DNA from: Chromera velia
Lineage: Eukaryota; Sar; Chromeraceae
DNA length: 20,000 nucleotides
Direction: 5' to 3'
Assembly (NCBI GenBank): GCA_018398765.1
Contig: JAHBMJ010003743.1
Span: 1 to 20,000, forward strand
The first letter of the stretch is position 1. Each line of letters starts with the position of its first letter. A program made the translations under genes and the position numbers. The notes under the pieces are model-generated. The model was not told the DNA's origin, searched no databases, and saw nothing but the letters and a program-made list of their open reading frames with translations. This document shows, piece after piece, positions 3,967-16,051 of this stretch.

Positions 3967-6900
3967 TCATTCATGTACAGGCCCAAGTTCTTCGAGGACG
4001 TTCATGTCCATCGCCCCCTCTGAGAAAAGTTTCTCTAACGAGAGCATCAGGAACCCTGCACCCTCTCCTGCAGCGTCCCCTCCCCCGCTTCCCTGCAACG
4101 GCGGCAGAACACTGGCAGTGGGAGGCTGTTGAGGCTTATCGAAAATGTCACTCATGGACATCAGAAACTTCCAGGGCTCAACGGTGAGTGCCTCGGAAGG
4201 CCCTGCTGCTGTTTCATCCTCCACCTCAATCGCGGCCTCTGTCTCTGCCGTTGTGGCACTCGTGAGGGCATTCACTTCTTCTGTCCCCGAAAGGCGTTTC
4301 TCTGCACCTTCCCGAATTCCTGCAAAGGCCTGGAGGTCGAACGCCCAGGGAGACGATGACGACGAAGACGAAGAACCGAAAGAGGCAGAAGCCTGAGAGT
4401 CTGTGTGAAGACTGTTGTGCAATTTGTCGAGGGGGAGGGAACACAGAGGGGAACAGGGCCCCAAATATGCCGGGGCCCCGGTTCTGCGGTCAGCTGCATC
4501 GAGGGAATCCGAGTTGACTCTTCTCATCGCCCCTGGGGAAGTTTCGTCGTTTGTGCTGCTACCGTGGGCCGTGGTGGCAGCTGCTGCAGGCGAGTCATCT
4601 ACGGCATCGGTTGGTAGAGGGTAACTTGGAATTTTGACCCCTTCCATTTCAAGGGGGGTCAGTGGTGTACATGTGTGTGCGGGAACTCTTTCTCTCTTCT
4701 GTTGCTGCTGCTGCTGCTGCCCCCTTCTTTTGTCTCTGTCTCGATCTCTCTCTCTGTCTTCACCTGGACAAGGACCCTGCTGTGAGCGGAAGGCAGGCCA
4801 GTGATGTCCCCCCGGACCCTGTGTCTGTCCTTGACTGTGACCGTCTGGGAGAGGGAAGGGGGGAGCCCAGGGGGGCCGGATGGGCGCGCCGTCTGGCCCC
4901 TGAGAAGACGGACCTGCCCCCCCGTGTCCCGGCCAGGGGTAGCAGTAGGGAGGGAAAGCAAATGGGGGTACTTGGACATGAGGGGGGGGGAGCATGTGGG
5001 GTGGATAGCCGCTCCGTGCGAGGGCTGCAAAGTAAGCTGTGGGGTCAACGGGGGGGGGGAAGTTGCCTGGGGGTCCCGAAAGGTTCGGAGGGTAAGGCCA
5101 GGCTCCAAAATAGGGGGGTGGAAAAAAGGGGAGGAAGTCTGGAGGTAGATTGTGAGGGTCATTTGGGTTGAAGTGACAGCCGGAGTGGTTGTCCATCTGG
5201 TTATCTGCAGGGGGTCTTTCTCTTCTTCCGTCTCCTCCTCGAGCGAATCTTGAAGGAGGCTGGACTCCTCCATTTGCGCCCCCCCTTGCGTTTCCGTTTT
5301 GACCTCTTTCATGTCTTTTCTGCCGATCTCTAGTGTTCACTCTGCCTTCTCTATCCCTGTCCCTGTCTCTGTCTCTATCTCGGGAAGGTCCATTCTCTGG
5401 TGAAGAACTCAGCCTGAAATGACTTTTCTCTTTTTCGACTCCCTCGTGGCTTTCCGCCCCCCTCACTCTTTCTCTGGACCCTTCGAAGGAATCTCTTTTC
5501 CTCTCTTCTTCCTCCTGCTCACGCTCTTCTTCTTCTTCTGCTGCATTGGGGGCTTTGGATGTGGGGGGCTGCAAGGGGAATGATGAGGCCCTGTTGACAA
5601 GCCTGCTGCCTGCTTGCTCGGTCGTGGCGTGCTTCTCAGCTGAGTGTGCCTCTTCCTCCGCTCCGAACCCTCCCGGCTCTTTATCTTCAGGAATAATCTT
5701 GCTCCCCCCCTCCTCAGCTGAAGAGTTTCCTGAGGGGGTCGCGGTGACGCTTCCGGTTGTGTCTGCGGGCAGCCGAATTTTGCCTCCAGATTTGAGGGAA
5801 GGGGAAAGGGGAGGAAAGCCGTCATCAGTCTCGATGAAGATCTTGGGAGGACGGGACGCCCATGCGCTGCCGGGAGGGAGCTGGGGGGACCTAGAGACTC
5901 CCTTCGTGACTACTGGACAGGGTACTGGAGCCCTGGGAAGTGAGGTTGGGTTCGCGTTCTGGTGCCTCCATTTCGATTCCCTCTCCGTGGCTGGGTTGCT
6001 GAGCGGAGCCGTTCCCTCTGTTTCTCCTCCACTTTCTGTGGAATTGCTGAGCGGCGGTTTCTTTGACGCAGGGGACTTTGTGTTATCAGGTCTGTCTCTG
6101 TTGTCGGCTTCGAGCTCTTGAGTCTGCTTTTGTGTTCCTGGGGTTTGTGCTTGAATTTTCGATTGTGTTTCGTCCTTCAAGGAACCGGTCGCACTGTTTC
6201 CCTCTCTGCCCTTCCTGAGAACCTGGTTAGGCTGCATTTGTTGTTGCTGCTGGGTTCTCTGTTCATTGAAGCCTGTGGCGTTGATATTGCTCGATCGAAG
6301 CCGAGCATTTCCCAGAGACGCCAGGGCACTCTCCGGGTCATCACTGGCAAGTGCATCCCTTGCTTTGACAAGTTCTGCATGCAGTCAGTCCATCCAGGCA
6401 GGCAGTCGGAAGAAGCAAAATGAAAAAAAATAATAATAAACTGATTGAAGAAGTGAAACGAATGGACTAATTGAAAATACGGTCTGCTGAACAAATGTGT
6501 GACCAACAGACAGACTGGTCAGTTGACCAGCTGACCTCATAACTAACTGACTGACTTACAAACTGTCTGGCTTGCTGACTGGGTGGTTTGCTGACCGACT
6601 GATCAACTGACTGTGGCTGAGTTACTGACAGAAAGACATGCAGACTGGCAGACAGAGAGACTGACCGGCTTCTGAGTGTGCGTAAGTGCATTTGTCTCTG
6701 TACGGACACGGAATTCCCTGCAAGGAACCAAGCAAGCATACGAGGGGAAGCAAGGAACATTTCTAGCTTGGCAGGATACATAAATACAAACAAAATGAAA
6801 TAAGAAATGAGCCCTTGAACAGGTTTGATGCAGAGTGACACACTGAAAGCATGAGGGTATGGGGACTGAAGGCCAGACGGTAAACATTTTCCATAGCTAC

Positions 6901-7773
6901 GCGTACAGGTGGCAGGGGGGGAGGTTGATTTTCTCTTAGGGGGAAAGACACGATGCAGACCAAATGACAGCACGAAAGGGATATGGAGACTGCAGGAATA
7001 TCTGTATTTTTAAAAGTAAAAAACATGTCAGCTCGCACAGTACTGGCGCAGACAAAAACTAAACAAAACAAGAGGGAGAGACGTCCAAGTCAAAGAAGAC
7101 ATGCATCATTCATACCAAGGAAGCCAATGGGAAAGCGAGGCAGCCGAGTGTGAGGGATTTGTCGATCAACACAAGAAATGTTTTTTTTTGCGTGTCCCCT
7201 TTCGGCATCATCTGCCCTGTGCGTCATCCAGTGTAGCAGAACAGTCAAGGAAATAAATTGCGTTTATATATCTAGAAATGCAAGCTGACCCTTGCAGCAT
7301 TGTAGCACATGGAGGTGAATCTGAAGTCGGGAATTTTCCTGCAGAAAGAAGAATTGATGCAGCACATGGAGGTGAATCTGAAGTCGGGAATTTTCCTGCA
7401 GAAACAAGAATTGATGCAGCAAGTCCAGAAAGACGTCAGGTAGGCACCAGAGTGTGAAAGTAACTTTTGCATATTCGGTCGGAGTCTCACTGTACAATTG
7501 TATCGGTCTGAGTCGCCTCTTTCGTAATGAGAGAAAAGGAGGACCGACCTCAGCTGATCAACACCGTGTGCAAAGCGGCAGAGGCTCCCAAGCTTACAGC
7601 TTCCCGCCATGTAGTGACGACATCTGCAGTGAGGATAAAAGCCAAAACGAAGTCATGAAGCAATGATGGAGACATGCTCGGCGAGCGGAAAGAGACGGCC
7701 TACTGACTCACAATTTCGTACACTTTACGGCACCTTCCCAGTTGAAGTGCATCTGTTCTTGATCTTTTGACAT
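3967..7773 (-). CDS. Tandem CCCH zinc-finger protein with long disordered tail (five exons, 881 aa)
   Basis: Proposed exons on the minus strand are 7773-7712, 7623-7549, 7338-7290, 6717-6666 and 6374-3967. Phases agree at every junction and the total is 2646 nt including TGA. Exon 1 starts at an ATG and ends at a GTGAGT donor. The junctions assemble two zinc fingers: C22-x7-C30-x5-C36-x3-H40 (CRHYMAGSC then CRFAHG) and C57-x8-C66-x5-C72-x3-H76 (CTYAHSEAELV). The linker is 16 residues. Each finger is split by an intron, and only correct splicing restores the canonical spacing, which strongly supports the model. Proteins with such TTP-like finger pairs usually bind single-stranded AU-rich RNA and control mRNA decay or translation; the role here is inference. 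A helical stretch follows at about 80-118. The remainder is low complexity: Q runs at 121-125 and further on, an RD repeat near 411-422, and a Pro/aromatic-rich segment near 490-560. No catalytic domain is visible. Exon 5 has an unbroken frame. An internal methionine at 6237 could be mistaken for the start. Confidence 0.88.
7306..7419. repeat. 57-bp tandem duplication spanning a splice acceptor
   Basis: Two 57-bp units (7306-7362 and 7363-7419) differ at one base. On the minus strand each contains a pyrimidine tract, a TTTCTGCAG acceptor and the first codons of exon 3 of the zinc-finger gene. The acceptors end at 7339 and 7396, exactly 57 nt apart. Because 57 is a multiple of three, either acceptor keeps the reading frame. 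Confidence 0.95.
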
Positions 7774-8207: not shown

Positions 8208-8736
8208 GCCGGCTGGGGACGCGCTGCCATCCATCATGGCAGGTGTGCATGGGCGCCCATGAATGACAAATTTTGGGGAAATTTCGCGAATTCGGGGTTA
8301 AATCCTCGGTGCACCTGCATGCATGCATTATTACATGACCCTTGCGGATCTTCAGCCGGCTCCTTTTTTGGGAAAACATTTTTAATTTCCATATATATAT
8401 ACACAGAGAGTACGTATATAGTGTAAGATGTGGAAATCCATGCATCTGCAACAGAATTTCGATCGATCTTCCATGATCTTCCCCCTGTATATATGCTTAT
8501 CACTGATTCCATTGCTCGATCGATCAAATCTACCGGCCAGGCAGCCGTTTCTTGATGTTCACAGGAATATATATCTATTTCAACATATATACATGATACA
8601 GAAATTGTGGCGTAAGAAAAGTCAGGAGACGCACAGATCAACAGGCTGACTCCATTTCAGTCATTGTGCCTTTAAACGTTTACTGACTTCCGCAACAAAT
8701 AGGAAGCGGTCACGCTCGATCGCTTCTGCCTCGAGC

Positions 8737-11700
8737 ATGAGCGGGCGTTCATGGGCAAAATGGGCAACCCGCCTTCTCCTCTCATCTTGGTTTTTGTCCA
8801 GCTGTCCCACCCGCTTCTCGAAACTTGCGGTAAGTGCTGAGATTGCTTCGGTCGGCTGCGGTGCGGAGAAAAGGTGCTCGGAGCTGAGAGAGGGAGAGGC
8901 TCTTGCAGGAGGAGAATGGCTGACAAGCCCGTCGGGCAACTACGCTTTGACCGTCACTCACCTTCCCCCTCAACTTTCAATTGTTCGTACACATGACTTC
9001 TTCCTTGTCTGGGAGGCAAACAAAAATCAGCAACTGTCTACGGATGTATCGCGTCTAGATACAGACGTTTTCCTGCGCCTACAGGAGGGTCGGGTGCTCC
9101 TGGAGGTGAGGGATCTTCAAGCCAACCTTCTGCAGACTCTCTTTTCCTCTCCGCCTGTACACGAAAAATTTAGACGAAACGTTCGGCTGACAATGCAAGA
9201 TGACGGAAATTTGGTTTTGTATGGAGGAGCGGACGGCATGAGCGTCCCTTGGTCTTTGCAAACGCAGCAACTCCAACGCGCACCCCCCCCCTCCAGCGCT
9301 CCCTCTCCCAACACACCCGCAGCAGGCGGTACTTCTCCTGCAGATTGCATGCCGTTTCGCAATTGTGCCTCATGCACGGAGGCCGGTTGTGCATGGTGTA
9401 TATCTAAGATGAAGTGCGTGAGCGACGAGCCCTGGATTTGTGCTGGGGACGACGACCACGTATCTTCACAAACACCGGTACCTGGGAAATACAGGGGGAA
9501 GGGGAAGTGCCCCTCAGGGGAGGCAGTAGAGGAAGCCACGCGGAAAAGAAGGGAGGCTGCTGAGAATCGAAGACAAGAGAAAGAGGCTGCAGCACGAGAG
9601 GCAGAGGAAGAGAAAGCTAAATTGAAGGCAAAAAGATCAGAAGCTGACCCCTCCCCGAAGTGCAGTTCTGACGAAAAGCGTGAATCAGAGGAGAAATCTG
9701 CGGAGGAGATCGCAAGGCACTTAAAAAAACTCAAATTGAGGTCCCGTCTACACGATGAAGTTCCCGACCGAGGTTCAGTAGAGCCTTATGATGTTCTTGA
9801 GGTGTCTGTCACTTCGACCCCGTCTGAAGTCAGGAAAGCCTACAGGAAGCTCTCTCTACTGTTTCATCCGGACAAGAACAGAGGGAACGAAGAATCGAGA
9901 AAAATGGCAGATGCAGCCTTCAGCGACATTCAGAACGCCTTTGATCTCCTCGGCACTCCCGACAAAAGGTCCGTGTGATCAATTGTGGTGCAGATACATG
10001 AATTTGAATTTTGAAAGCTTTGCAGTGCGCATTTTTCATCCAGCCAATCTTTTTCTTGCCTCTCTGTAGACGCAGCGGCAGGGATGAGAGAATGCAACAA
10101 CGCGAGCCACTCAGGCAGGCAGTCGGACTAGATTGCAAGCATCTGAACAAGAAGAGGAAAGAAGAAAGCAAGTCATGCTCTCTTTTCCCTGTGCGAGCTC
10201 GGTGCGAGGCAGCCAACAAGGAGGAAGCTGGACGACTGGATGCAAATCATGATCTTCTATGGACGCGGGCGAAGTGGATGTGTTTTGAGTGCCAGAAGGG
10301 CTGTCTGCATTCGTTTCTTTTCCTTCTTTGAATTTGATTTGAGAAATCATCAAGACTGCCATGGTTCATTGGAGGATCCCCTGCCGTTCCATTCGTCTAG
10401 GAGGCCTGTGTCTCGCATGTGTCGATCCCGGTCTGGTCTGTTCAAGCTTGTTTTTTTCCGAACTGCTGCGTAAGCCGGACTGTCTTATAAATGCGTGCAT
10501 GTGCCGAATGCTCTTCACCAAAATATCTGCACACTCGCAAGACGACCCCTGATCCTCTGATGTGATGTATGTGCATTTGTGTATACAATCTCACCTGCAC
10601 TTGTTTGGGCACGTTTGCGCGAATTTATGGATTTGCACAAGGGATGAGGCGTTTGCGTTCGCCGATATCTACGTACGAGTCTGTGCATGGGCGTTGAAAA
10701 GCATTCATTGACCGATGCTGTTTGCAGAACTGCCTTCGACGAGGCTTCTACTTTCTCGAAGAACGCAGGAGATGCCGCTCGATTCGCCCAAGACAAGAAG
10801 AACTGGAGGGGCGACGAGGAGTTTTACATGGGAGACCCTCTCATTAGCACACTGACGGAGGGAATATGGGAGAGAAGAATGCACGGAGATGGAATCTGGT
10901 TCATCGAGTGCTATGCAGCTTGGTGCCCTCATTGCGTGTCAGTCAGTCAGTCAGTCAGTCAGTCAGTCAGTCAATCAATCAGTAAGTCACTCATTCAGTC
11001 AGTCACTCAGTCAGTCAGTCAGCCAGTCAGGGAAGCAAGCAGGCAGTGACTGCGCAAGGCAATCAGTTTCCCCGCCAGTCAAAACAATCTGGCAACCCCC
11101 TTGAATCTCGATGACTTCCCATCCATCCATCCATCCATCCATTCTTCAATCGACGAATGAACCAATAAACGTGTAAATCGACGAATCAATCGATTCCTCA
11201 AGAGTCGGTCAACCAATCCATCTGTCGGCCTGAGAGACGATCCTAGTTGACCTTCACTCTCGTCGGCATCAACCTGTTTAGAGACCTTTCTGCCAATCTT
11301 TTGAGAGTTCCGTTTCCTGTTTTTTGTCTCCGTGTGAAAGGTTACAGCTTCGTTGTTTTCCCTTTGTGCGTGCTGTCTTGACTTCTTCTGATGCACATCT
11401 GTTGCTTCGATCCTAGAATCGCAAACTGATGTCTGTTCACTTCGGCCCTCAGATCAAACCATGCAGAGGAATGACGAAACATATTCAGAATTCAGAATAC
11501 CCACACACACACACATAATCAATCTTGCACGCACTCTCACACCCTGTCCTCTCAGCAGGCATTCAGATACAAACACACCTACACACACACATGCACATAC
11601 ATGTACACACACGCATACACACACACAAGCAGGGACGCACGCCGCACGTGCACATGCACATGCACATGTACATGCACATATTTACGCGTCGAATAGTGCC

Positions 11701-12289
11701 GACATGCAGATTCACATATGAAATTATGTGCATGCAGGCACATGAAGGACTTCTTCAAGCAGGCGGCACAACTTCTCGAAAACGACGATGTGGAAGTTGG
11801 GGCCGTGAACTGTGTGAGACAACCTCGACTTTGCAGGTGCGTGCGTCTGTCTGCCTTTTTCCCTGCATGCATGTGTATTCCTCTACCCAAGTTTTGGTCT
11901 CTCTTCCCGCTTCTGCATTGCCCGCTTCTCTGTCTCGCCTGTCGAATATTCGGAGAGGTTCCATTTGAGAGAAGTTTTGTGATCCTCGAGAGCAACAACA
12001 TATCTCCTCTTCCCCCATCTCAATTGTGAATTCTAGCTCGGAGGTTCTCGACAGGACTGGCTTGAGGGGCTTCTGCGTTGGTACATGCAATCGAGAAATA
12101 CTCCCACCTGTCTTTGTCATTTGTGGATTTAGCTCGAAATCTTTGAATCCCCTTCCTGTGCCCCACTCTGATCCCTTGGTTCATCGGTGTCCCCTCTCTT
12201 CGCCTGTATGTGGGCTTCGCATGCAGAGAGGTGCTTGGAGCCTCTGCTTTTCCGACTTTCCTCATGTTCAACAGGTCGGTCCAGGGGTC

Positions 12290-12327
<38 letters not shown>

Positions 12328-12907
12328 TGTATGTGTACGTGTATGTGTATGTGTGTGTGCGTGCTTGTGTGTGTGCGCGAGAGAGTGAGCGGATGAGTGA
12401 TTGAAGAAAAGAGGTTGGCAGCACGGGGGAATTACTAAACGCTAGTGACTTGAATAAAATGTTCCATTTGCTAAAGGTCAGCATGCGGCATGTCGTCGAC
12501 ACAAGTACAACCACGTACCTGGCACGTATTCTCTATTCGACCTTCCTTTTCACCCGTTTGGGTGTCTTCTTGTGTGCACCCCTTTGTATGTTTTCCTGCA
12601 TGTGTGCGTTGGAGTGAGTGCAGGGAGCTCGGCATGATCCAGCGTTTCAAGCTTCACGGGCATGCCTTTCAGACCATCGCACAGACTCTTGCGGATTGGG
12701 CAAGAAAAGTCCGTTTGGAAGGGGGGGGGGGGAAGGCAACATTGCTCCCAAAAATCGGTCCTGGTGGTTGTCTACGGACTCCGGCTCTGTTTTTGTCTGT
12801 GTGTCTGTCTGAAGTAAAATTGTGAATGCCTTTTTTCAAGACCGACAAACAACTTCCAACATGCTGGCGGATTAGAGAGATGTTTCTGCGGCAAGATAAA
12901 TCCGAAT

Positions 12908-12972
<65 letters not shown>

Positions 12973-13792
12973 TGTGTGTGTATGTGTGTGTGTGTGTATG
13001 TGTGTGTGCTTGCAGGTGTCTGCCGAATGGCGTCACCTTCTTGCCAGTAGAGACGTGGAGATGCTGGACACCTCACACTTTCTGTTCAACCTCCCGGCGC
13101 TGGTGGAGGAAGAGAAGGAACGAAAAGCGCAACGAGAAGCCGACATAGAGGCAGGAGACGAAATGGAAGAGGAAGAGGAAGAGGCTGAAAAGGAGCACGC
13201 AGAGAGACAGAACTTCCACATGGTCCTCTTTTTTGACTCACTCGAGTGTGGACCCTGCAAGGTCGGAATGACAAATCTGAGGAGACTCGCTGCCTCCCTC
13301 CGGGGCCTTCCCGTGAGCATCGGGGCCGTCAATTGCGAGGCATCTGAGGAACTTCATTCTCTCTGTTATGAAACTCTTCAGCTGTCTGCGCCTCCGCACC
13401 GACCGCACCTTCGTGCATGGCCTGCAGGGACAATAGAAGAGAAGGCGCATAGGCCAGAGGGCACAGAGCTGTACAACCCAAATGAACTCGAGCCCCACAT
13501 TGTCCTCCGCACTCTCGAGAAAACCCTGCGGCTAGCATTGGCAGATCGGAGGGAGGCAGGACAAAAGACAGGATCCGCTTTGGTAGCAGGGAAACCCAGC
13601 GACTTTGAAGATGAAAAGGAGGAGGAGGAAGAAGAAGAACCCCCTCCCCCCCCTCCTGAAGCTCCTCCTGACATGTCATGGCATGACTTTGCGGACACCC
13701 TCATGTGGGACGGCCCCGAGCAGCCAGCCCTTCCCCCTACTCCTTGGAAAGTCTACGCGAGACCTCGCGCTCCTGCGATTGCTACTGCATAA
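8737..13792 (+). CDS. Lectin-PSI-DnaJ-thioredoxin multidomain protein (six exons, 816 aa)
   Basis: Proposed exons are 8737-9968, 10728-10937, 11738-11836, 12227-12274, 12624-12708 and 13016-13792. All phases agree and total 2451 nt including TAA. In order: a probable N-terminal signal or anchor segment (hydrophobic about 12-22); a bulb-type lectin-like domain at about 48-175 with QDDGNLVLY at 154-162, matching the mannose-site pattern QxDxNxVxY; a cysteine-rich PSI-like domain at about 204-258; a charged coiled-coil at about 262-335; and a J domain from about 349 with HPD at 377-379, which would recruit an Hsp70. Thioredoxin domain 1 has WCPHC at 476-480 and SAFPT with the probable cis-proline at 523, the latter restored only by the 48-nt exon. 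An acidic linker follows, then thioredoxin-like domain 2 with CGPC at 636-639 but Glu where Trp is usual. The tail is acidic and proline-rich. J plus thioredoxin domains recall ER reductases of the ERdj5/DNAJC10 type, so an ER role in disulfide handling is likely by analogy. No KDEL-like C-terminus is present. The start is the first ATG after an in-frame stop at 8647. Confidence 0.9.
9969..10727 (+). other. Intron 1 of the J/thioredoxin gene
   Basis: It begins GTCCGT directly after the codons for the end of the J domain (DK, then a split Arg codon) and ends TTTGCAG. It is 759 nt long and contains no obvious microsatellite and no exon I can support. Reading through the donor would stop at 9976-9978, giving a J protein truncated after four extra codons. 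Confidence 0.8.
10938..11030. repeat. (GTCA)n microsatellite starting at a splice donor
   Basis: Tandem GTCA units begin exactly at the first intron base and continue with interruptions (AATC, AAGT, CACT) to about 11030. This creates many copies of the GTCAGT donor hexamer in succession. Confidence 0.9.
11500..11690. repeat. CA-rich tract with CATGCA units
   Basis: An interrupted (CA)n repeat grading into CATGCACATG units, inside intron 2 of the J/thioredoxin gene. Confidence 0.85.
11837..12226 (+). other. Intron 3 of the J/thioredoxin gene
   Basis: 390 nt, from GTGCGT to GCATGCAG, between codons for NCVRQPRLC and the EVLGASAFPT segment. The middle is pyrimidine-rich and I see no exon inside. 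Other open frames in this stretch have no domain support. Confidence 0.8.
12290..12376. repeat. (GT)n microsatellite in intron 4
   Basis: GT repeat with GTAC and GTAT interruptions, starting 15 bases into intron 4 (12275-12623) of the J/thioredoxin gene. That intron begins GTCGGT and ends GAGTGCAG. Confidence 0.95.
12721..12732. repeat. G homopolymer
   Basis: A run of 12 G residues shortly after the donor of intron 5 (12709-13015, beginning GTCCGT). It is intronic in the proposed model, so length variation should be tolerated. Confidence 0.9.
12910..13008. repeat. Compound (CT)n(GT)n microsatellite before an acceptor
   Basis: About 15 CT units pass directly into GT units with a few TATG interruptions, ending just before the CTTGCAG acceptor at 13009-13015. 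The tract occupies the place of the polypyrimidine tract of intron 5. Confidence 0.95.
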
Positions 13793-14090
13793 TTTTTACT
13801 ACAAGCAGACTTCAGCGCCTTCTATGCGCTTAGTATTCAAATGTTGCCATATTATCACCACGCAACTCCGAGTCTGTAAAGCATAGTTGCCACTAGCATT
13901 ATCATTACTGATTCATTCGGATGTATCGCTAAATGTATCGACTAGCAATTATTTTGATTATAATGACGTTCAATGCTTTAATGTTAATAACTAGCTAGAA
14001 TCATGGCTAGAATTATGACTCAACACAACCTCAGTCAACGTTGATAATCTGAAATATACTAGGAAATATACATAGAAGCTAGTATAGAAG

Positions 14091-14200
14091 ACAGTTTATA
14101 AGTTATACCCAAAACAATTTATTAGAAGTTGAATAAAGTTGAAATACAGTTTATAAGTTATACCTAAAACAATTTATTGGAAGTTGAATAAAGTTGAAAT
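14091..14200. repeat. 55-bp tandem duplication carrying AATAAA
   Basis: Two adjacent 55-bp units starting ACAGTTTATAAGTTATACC differ at two bases. Each holds a GAATAAAG, so plus-strand AATAAA occurs twice, about 340-400 bp after the stop codon of the J/thioredoxin gene. Use as a poly(A) signal is possible but unproven. Confidence 0.9.
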
Positions 14201-14389
14201 ACAGTGAGTGCCAAATTTTAGATTTATATAAATTCATGTAAATTTTTTTATCAAACTTCACCGTTTTCAACTTATTAGGTAAAATGGCACCAATGAAATC
14301 AAGTCAATCCACGCCAAGTCAAAGCTTCACGGCCTGTGCGCAAAGCAAGAGCTAGGCATGATCTATAATTAAAGTTATTTTTATAATAA

Positions 14390-14620
14390 AGTCTAACCAC
14401 AGACTTTAGACTTTAAAACTTCTTTAGTTTTAAAACTTTAAGAATAAAAAGCCTAGTAAAAAGCTTGAACATATTGATTTGTTGTTTAAGATTGTTTAGC
14501 CTTTTAAAACATTTTTCAATAAATGATAAAAAAACTTTTAAAGTGCGTTTTAAAAGTTATATTTTAGAGTCTACAGACTCAAACCAGGCTTTAAACTTTA
14601 TTTCACTTTAAAACTTTACA
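14390..14620. repeat. Cluster of inverted repeats rich in TTTAAA
   Basis: Visible hairpins include TTTAAAACT/AGTTTTAAA (14412-14434, loop 5), AACTTTTAAA/TTTAAAAGTT (14533-14558, loop 6), GAGTCT/AGACTC (14567-14580, loop 2) and GTCTAA/TTAGAC (14391-14411). Function is unknown. AT-rich DNA makes such repeats more likely by chance. Confidence 0.6.
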
Positions 14621-14857
14621 AATCACACCTAGAGCGAGAGCAGGTGATGCGCAAAAACCTATGCACATGCATGTAACACGTACACTAGATCGATAGAGCA
14701 TACACAAATGCAGTGAGGCAAAAAGTACTGCACTAAGTACTGTATCAAACGTTAACTGGCCTGCTGCATGCAAAGGAAAGCCCTGAAGACCAGAAGATAC
14801 TAGAAGGGTATGTTGGTAGGACATACTCTCCATATAACATAAAAGCTGTGTACTGTT

Positions 14858-14895
14858 GCTGCTGCTGCTGTGAGGGTGTTTGCTGCTGCTGCTGT
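14858..14895. repeat. Interrupted CTG/CAG trinucleotide repeat
   Basis: Two short blocks of four GCTGCT-type units separated by TGAGGGTGTTT. I see no coding context, so this is treated as a simple repeat. Confidence 0.8.
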
Positions 14896-16051
14896 TGGTC
14901 TTCATTTTCCCTGTCTCCCTAGTGGCTGCATCTTCACTCTAGTTTTCACTGGTGAATATAGTATGTATTTTTTAAAGGTTTCATAAGTAAAATTTTTAAA
15001 AACATTTATCCAAAGCTTTAACGTCCAAAATAATTAATTAAAAACGAAAACAGAAGTAAGAAAATGACAAAAAGAGGGAGAAGTAAAGTCTGAAATCATT
15101 GTGAGATGTGTTGACAGTCCTTTGTAAATCCACATGGGCTCCGTGTTTACCTAGGCAAAAAATATAAAAACACCGCAGCCTCCTCCAAGCCAGAACAATT
15201 AACAAAAAAAGACAATGAATAGGAAGGAAGAGCCAGAGCTGGATAGATGACCGCTAGATAAAAAAAACAATTGGAAGATCCAAAAGGGGTTTTTGGTATC
15301 AATGGTATGAAGCTAGGTATGAAGTTCAAGTTGAGTGGCATGGGTGGCAAAGCATATTTCATGAGCCAACATCACTTATCCGCACGTAAGGTCTGCCATA
15401 GATAAAAAAGTTTAAAAAGAACAGTCGGTACGTGTTTTAAGCGTGTTTGCTAAAAATCAGTTCCTTAATTCAACCTGCGCTGCCTGTGCTGATCCTAGTG
15501 TTGATCGACTTCCTAAGCATGAGCGATTGTATTGTAATTTTATATATTATATACGACTATTATTACAGTCTAACTTATCAATTTAAAGCTAAGTTTGAAG
15601 CTTCACAAGTTACTATACTATTCTACTAGATCATTCTAGCAATTATTAAATATGTCTTTTGTCGCCATTTTTCTAGCCATTTTTCCTAAAACATTCTTTT
15701 TATAAGTGTGAAAGTGAAAACTCAATTAATTTGTGCCACCGAGAGCAAGCATTGCACTTGTGCTTTACAACAGCATCCAATTTAGCACCTAATGCAACAA
15801 TAACGGGAAAAAACTAGGCGTCGAAGCACGATGCCTTGACTTGTGTTTCCAAAACTTCCCTCGATCATCGGAATGCGACAGATCTCAGTTCAGTAAGCTC
15901 ACTATTCCGGGAGTATAGATGACAATGCAGCTCTTTTTTAGGCTCATAAGGGGCGGTGTTGCCCGACGAAGCATTGCAGATGCCCTGGTGGTGAGAAACT
16001 TCTGGGTGTAGTCACGTTCGACACAGATTTCGGACGGCTAAAGCAGCAAAG

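Follow-up and report, generated by a model that had tools for sequence, protein, structure and literature searches.

We analysed a 20,000-nucleotide (nt) stretch of Chromera velia DNA (positions 1 to 20,000 of contig JAHBMJ010003743.1; hereafter the window), which lies on contig C3439 of the searched genome (177.8 Mb in 4040 contigs). Between 8737 and 13792 on its forward strand is a six-exon gene whose predicted product of 816 amino acids (aa) joins, in this order, a bulb-type mannose-lectin-like domain, a PSI domain, a J domain and two thioredoxin domains (Trx1 and Trx2). We hold this lectin-PSI-J-Trx-Trx architecture to be very probably correct as described. The J-then-thioredoxin order is shared with ERdj5 (DNAJC10), to which the similarity is continuous from aa 347 to 534 of the window protein.

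A single coding unit

The gene model reads through the following segments into one protein without an internal stop.

8737..9968, + strand: exon 1, 1,232 nt, uninterrupted, aa 1-411; from the N-terminus through lectin, PSI and charged linker into most of the J domain
9969..10727, + strand: intron 1, 759 nt, with 8, 7 and 7 stops in the three frames; homology continues across it
10728..10937, + strand: exon 2; end of the J domain and start of Trx1
11738..11836, + strand: exon 3; Trx1
12227..12274, + strand: exon 4; Trx1, SAFPTF region
12624..12708, + strand: exon 5; end of Trx1, placed by frame and splice sites, the ERdj5 match covering only its first residues
13016..13792, + strand: exon 6; acidic linker, then Trx2, a tail rich in acidic residues and proline, and the stop

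All five introns (759, 800, 390, 349 and 307 nt) have GT...AG borders, and no stop codon arises at any of them. Exon 1 belongs to an open frame spanning 8650-9978, with the ATG at 8737 and the donor GTCCGT. The donor GT at 10938 provides a check on the model, since it keeps the downstream frame open, whereas ending exon 2 two bases earlier breaks the frame. A (GTCA)n-like array occupies 10938-11050 and starts at this donor, so that the splice site is itself part of a simple repeat. Start, end, length and the 759-nt intron are the same as in the initial annotation, which bears out its claim of one phase-consistent 816-aa protein. Along this protein, QDDGNLVLY stands at aa 154, the PSI-like cysteine block begins at aa 204, and HPD, CPHC and CGPC stand at aa 377, 477 and 636, respectively.

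The J domain and Trx1 contain the features below.

9781..10749, + strand: J domain, aa 349 to roughly 418, interrupted at aa 411 by intron 1; Pfam DnaJ, E 2e-17
9865..9873, + strand: HPD motif, read in the sequence
10924..10935, + strand: CPHC active-site motif of Trx1, read in the sequence

When the full protein was searched against Pfam, DnaJ was matched over aa 350-415 and Thioredoxin at E 3.2e-14 (best stretch aa 454-531). A phmmer search of PDB with the full protein gave 149 distinct sequences up to E 1; among the best 60 of these 149, the top matches are chains of ERdj5 (DnaJ homolog subfamily C member 10), 5ayk over aa 351-534 and 3apo over aa 347-534, with E 1.6e-27. An HPD-bearing J domain is thus followed by a CxxC thioredoxin domain, as in J-thioredoxin proteins of the ERdj5/PfJ2 type, and as judged from the sequence the identities of J and Trx1 are firm.

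Apart from its own gene, the protein finds its strongest match in the genome on contig C179 (E 3.0e-8, aa 349-495). This relative, on the minus strand, has a hydrophobic start, a J domain, a CGGC thioredoxin, a CPPC thioredoxin and a C-terminal REEL. In a three-sequence blastp search it is 26% identical to the window protein over aa 351-480 (E 7e-13), and its first thioredoxin piece scores 15.4 bits in Pfam against a cut-off of 23.5. The two proteins share the J-Trx-Trx order, but the relative differs by a signal-like stretch directly before J and by its REEL tail. Neither lectin nor PSI was seen in the relative, as judged by eye over about 2 kb of upstream DNA with the splicing partly worked out. 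The window gene therefore looks like an ERdj5/PfJ2-type gene with an added N-terminal half, that is, like a second J-Trx-Trx gene that may have acquired an N-terminal glycan-binding unit. Nine further J-domain loci had their frames judged by eye only, and other J-Trx or lectin-J genes may be among them.

The data do not point to a break at the 759-nt intron, which the initial annotation had named as the sign of two separate genes. Intron 1 interrupts the J domain, its junction at aa 411 lying within the Pfam DnaJ match, and the ERdj5 match runs on to aa 534; a split at this intron is therefore very unlikely. The junctions at aa 411, 481 and 514 fall inside the ERdj5 match and that at aa 530 is passed by four residues, and on this evidence J and Trx1 are one gene. 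A rival reading is that of two adjacent genes, or of an assembly or model error; exon 6 with Trx2, for instance, might be a separate gene. Such a division would accord with an intron 2 rich in simple repeats and with the lack of any homology crossing the Trx1-Trx2 junction (aa 558/559) before exon 6. The homology across the four upstream junctions, the stop-free joins and the same J-Trx-Trx order in the C179 relative speak against it, and we regard it as very improbable. Exon 6 would belong to the same gene on the basis of its open frame and of that shared order.

The lectin, PSI and second thioredoxin domains

The remaining domains and their motifs are as follows.

8878..9270, + strand: bulb-type (B_lectin) mannose-lectin-like domain, aa 48-178; from PDB, profile, NCBIfam and model
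9196..9222, + strand: QDDGNLVLY, the sole intact QxDxNxVxY sugar-site motif, in the third of three repeats; alignment A1
9343..9519, + strand: PSI (plexin repeat) domain, aa 203-261; C-x5-C-x2-C-x4-C-x2-C-x5-C
9520..9780, + strand: charged linker, from the sequence; probably helical or disordered
13199..13576, + strand: Trx2, thioredoxin-like; from a sub-threshold Pfam match and a profile, with a thioredoxin after the first one in the C179 relative too
13247..13258, + strand: CGPC active-site motif of Trx2, read in the sequence

The lectin piece, searched against PDB with phmmer, matched 43 sequences up to E 10. Six of these have E <= 1e-4, namely pyocin L2 (the best, E 1.1e-7), a LysM domain protein, pyocin L1 (two), putidacin L1 and Ika8; all but Ika8 we take to be bulb-type lectins. 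The putidacin L1 family of NCBIfam also matched (E 0.0012). When viral contigs were scanned with aa 41-410, there were 180 pattern matches and a single relative. This is L037, a bulb-lectin protein of a phage, 32% identical to the window lectin over 117 columns (pair E 1e-8). L037 itself, at 398-1219, is a phage-contig protein with a C-terminal three-repeat bulb-type lectin, and it looks like a cell-wall enzyme.

A profile seeded with L037 and including 101 bacterial and phage loci scores the window lectin at 33.4 bits. None of 5000 full shuffles reached this score (HMMER listed 3868, the best at 10.2 bits), while 12 of 5000 did so when the LTMQDDGNLVLYGG motif stretch was kept. Masking the nine residues of the motif lowers the score to 10.6 bits, a thin margin over the 10.2 bits of the best listed shuffle. 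L037 had been found with six peptide patterns from the window, LTMQDDGN included, and the 101 further loci with six L037 patterns, MQDDGNLV included. Because seed and loci were picked by pattern sets that include the third-repeat motif, the profile is biased to that repeat. The relatives used from the genome scan are the best 80 of 176, and alignment A1 comprises the window, L037 and 55 of 89 trimmed stretches, picked by hand.

An AlphaFold model of the lectin, with the lectin alignment as input, reached a predicted local distance difference test score (pLDDT) of 77.1 and a predicted template-modelling score (pTM) of 0.73. With this model, Foldseek found six matches at E <= 0.001: two to the Marasmius lectin, two to LlpA and two to 5gyy, a plant receptor complex that contains bulb lectins. 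Pyocin L, putidacin L1 and the Marasmius oreades lectin share with the window lectin the fold and one intact QxDxNxVxY motif, which we take to be the sugar-site motif of bulb-type mannose lectins. These lectins carry more than one intact site, and they occur in bacteriocins and in plant or fungal lectins and are not known on a co-chaperone.

Several observations weigh against a mannose-binding lectin. The isolated piece scores 16.1 bits with Pfam B_lectin (PF01453), for which the cut-off is 32.4, and a search with the full protein up to E 10 does not bring up this family. The QxDxNxVxY residues are lost in repeats 1 and 2 and kept in the third only. The best stretches of most PDB lectin matches reach only the third repeat, putidacin spanning query residues 13-122, and WD40 and other unrelated chains appear among the matches from E 0.017. 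The model and the fold search are not independent of the input alignment, which consists of known lectins and pulls the model towards that fold. Homology to solved bulb lectins and the three-repeat fold are nevertheless supported by PDB, profile and lectin-guided model together, and we conclude from the sequence comparisons that the lectin is real but diverged. Of the mannose lectin described in the initial annotation, the fold has thus held up, two of the three sugar sites are degenerate, and binding is a prediction.

Searches of the own genome revealed no other lectin copy, but they were insensitive. Pfam B_lectin gave no match there, missing the window's own weak copy as well, and none of 14 control genomes matched. 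The phage lectin gave one match at E 0.2 and again missed the window's lectin. The lectin-PSI piece found itself and three others at E 0.7-1.5, and these three were judged from their + strand frames to be chance matches. Since two of the searches missed the known copy, they cannot show that the lectin is single-copy.

The PSI domain has the expected cysteine spacing with a CxWC core. In PDB its piece matches Plexin-C1 (E 0.0025) and Plexin A (E 0.096), and it shares the cysteine pattern of the plexin PSI, differing by its place between a lectin and a J domain. Pfam PSI (PF01437) gives 19.0 bits for the isolated piece and 15.4 in the full-length protein, both under the cut-off of 23.1, which counts against the assignment. 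A profile of 13 PSI pieces from the same genome scores it at 20.9 bits. Neither 5000 full shuffles (4996 listed, 13.7 bits at most) nor 5000 shuffles that kept the cysteines (16.9 at most) come up to this value. Of the 19 matches listed, 15 loci were fetched, and 13 remained after removal of the window's own copy and of one piece containing a stop. PSI matches are not confined to this gene: the own genome holds 19 at E <= 1, the window's included, and other genes carry them too. Three contigs (C2652, C3773 and C173) have long open frames of 559-793 aa with several PSI matches each, and W-S replaces W-C in 5 of the 13 pieces.

Trx2 is the least certain domain. It scores 15.0 bits with a 19-row thioredoxin profile from the same genome, and no full shuffle out of 5000 does so (2986 listed, best 6.9); the same is true of 5000 shuffles that kept ECGPC (4998 listed), by a thin margin, the best reaching 14.5. 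The profile was made from 21 hand-picked stretches out of 30 fetched loci (60 matches listed), two with stops being dropped. On the other side, Pfam Thioredoxin (PF00085) gives the isolated exon-6 piece 14.6 bits against a cut-off of 23.5, and a sub-cutoff DUF5520 match (E 0.0042) ranks above Thioredoxin (E 0.035). In PDB the best match (E 0.0048) is to a GID8 homologue and lies on the acidic stretch; thioredoxins follow only from E 0.24. A model from the lone sequence is poor (pLDDT 46.8), its order of strands and helices fitting a thioredoxin. A fold search with this model turned up nothing at E <= 0.001, and glycosyltransferases led the weaker matches.

The initial annotation had staked the lectin and PSI assignments on profile searches. 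Both fall below the curated Pfam cut-offs, but PDB matches and shuffle-controlled profiles back them. Its domain composition, and the link it drew to J-thioredoxin proteins of the endoplasmic reticulum (ER), stand on Pfam DnaJ and Thioredoxin, the ERdj5 match and the shuffle-controlled lectin, PSI and Trx2 scores.

A proposed co-chaperone for glycosylated clients

According to one paper on the subject (PMC7563561), ERdj5 interacts with EDEM1 and reduces the disulfides of EDEM1-associated misfolded glycoproteins, its J domain binding BiP. PfJ2 of Plasmodium falciparum is described in PMC7886143 as an essential ER Hsp40 with a J domain, a C-terminal Trx and a DDEL tail, acting in an oxidative folding network. 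By that description PfJ2 shares the J domain and C-terminal Trx with the window protein, and a figure legend of the same source gives a signal peptide, J, Trx and DDEL only, with no lectin or PSI.

The window protein is built, and probably works, like proteins of this type. We propose, with a probability of about 0.5, that it is an ERdj5/PfJ2-type co-chaperone extended by a bulb-type lectin and a PSI domain and acting on glycosylated clients. The single intact lectin site would hold a mannose-bearing N-glycan of the client, and the PSI domain and charged linker would form a spacer or a protein-contact module. The HPD J domain would then make a BiP-type Hsp70 clamp the client, while CPHC and CGPC would reduce or rearrange its disulfides. 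Since the chain also has a mannose-lectin fold, the most economical assumption is that it docks on client glycans by itself. The ER location, glycan binding, the redox direction and the partnership with BiP are what we infer here.

The lectin-like and PSI domains may instead no longer bind sugar and serve as protein-contact or oligomerisation modules, leaving an ordinary J-Trx oxidoreductase with an adapter. The missing QxDxNxVxY residues at sites 1 and 2 would fit this, as would the use of PSI modules, which are often spacers in plexins and integrins. The third site, QDDGNLVLY, is fully intact, which would not be expected under drift, and we think this alternative somewhat unlikely. The lack of any N-x-S/T sequon in the 816-aa protein, which may be chance, means that a sugar-binding lectin would not bind its own chain through N-glycans.

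For the site of action, the N-terminus offers one candidate feature.

8737..8838, + strand: possible signal peptide region, with LLLSSWFLSSC at aa 13-23; from hydropathy only

The secretory factor foreseen in the initial annotation is favoured by the kinds of domain found together here (lectin, PSI, Trx) and by this modestly hydrophobic N-terminus. Two features weigh against it. LLLSSWFLSSC, with a Kyte-Doolittle mean of 1.49, ranks third among the 11-residue stretches, behind those at aa 516 (1.59) and aa 30 (1.51), the N-terminal stretch of the C179 relative having a mean of 2.55; and the C-terminus is APAIATA, with no KDEL-like ER retrieval tail. The protein might thus act outside the ER, being secreted, at the surface or in another compartment such as the complex plastid, with lectin and PSI used for adhesion or sorting. 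The missing retrieval tail, set beside the REEL of the C179 relative, favours such a location. On the other side, J domains require an Hsp70 partner. ERdj5 and PfJ2, which likewise combine J and Trx, belong to the ER (PMC7886143), and we consider action outside the ER quite improbable. The lumen of the secretory pathway is the most likely site of action, and within it the ER is the presumed compartment.

The own genome encodes ALG3 (E 1.8e-84), STT3 (E 2.8e-30) and calreticulin (E 1.7e-15), and the presence of these genes makes mannose-rich N-glycans plausible ligands. No match was found in the own genome to GH47 (EDEM) at E 0.001 or to MRH (OS-9) at E 0.01; neither search matched any of the 14 controls, so that these absences are only suggested. 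A bolder version would make the protein a one-chain counterpart of EDEM1/OS-9, the glycan reader, together with the reductase ERdj5. In this version a duplicated ERdj5-type gene would have received a mannose lectin of bacterial kind and replaced the missing glycan-dependent disposal step, in a lineage that, with ALG3 and STT3, still makes mannose-rich N-glycans but in which searches without a working control found no EDEM/GH47 or OS-9/MRH. We regard this version as unlikely.

The main role could also be disulfide formation or isomerisation in folding glycoproteins, like the calreticulin-ERp57 pair in one chain, instead of reduction for degradation. CPHC is similar to the CGHC of PDIs. Lectin chaperones work with ERp57 in folding (PMC7563561), and PfJ2 takes part with two PDI proteins in an oxidative folding network (PMC7886143). 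The same papers present ERdj5, the best match of the window protein, as primarily a reductase (PMC7886143, PMC7563561), and a role on the folding side seems to us unlikely.

A search of the full-text literature, aimed at the lectin-PSI-J-Trx-Trx combination or its setting, covering mainly freely accessible papers and judged by listings and the openings of abstracts, found no description of it, consistent with its being undescribed. A paper considered as a source on a Chromera lectin (PMC5864212) was set aside, its relevant passages having coral lectins as their subject. Glycan reading and reduction, divided in mammals between separate proteins (EDEM1 or OS-9 with ERdj5), would in the proposed co-chaperone be carried by one chain. 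Each part of the protein is known, but to our knowledge their combination in one protein is not; we know of no lectin or PSI domain in ERdj5, which has more Trx domains than the window protein and a KDEL tail. What is known of the coupling between glycan tags, Hsp70 and the reduction of disulfides comes from proteins docking to one another. If the proposal is true, a natural fusion of sugar reading, Hsp70 recruitment and disulfide reduction would lend independent support to that coupling and offer a single-protein system for testing it. It would further suggest that the glycans of misfolded proteins are recognised by a different route in some lineages.

Flanking DNA

The antisense frame at 9117-9785 gave no match in a Pfam search. 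Just 3' of the gene, positions 14001-15000 have a GC content of 0.33, lower than any other of the 20 one-kb steps (0.38-0.59), and no gene was recognised there. Upstream of the gene, the minus strand has two segments that are perhaps one gene. One, at 3967-6384, is an open frame of 805 aa and low complexity, containing RD stretches and stretches rich in Pro/Gln, for which Pfam gave no match at E <= 0.1. The other, at 7275-7652, encodes part of a CCCH zinc finger (zf-CCCH, E 3.8e-5).

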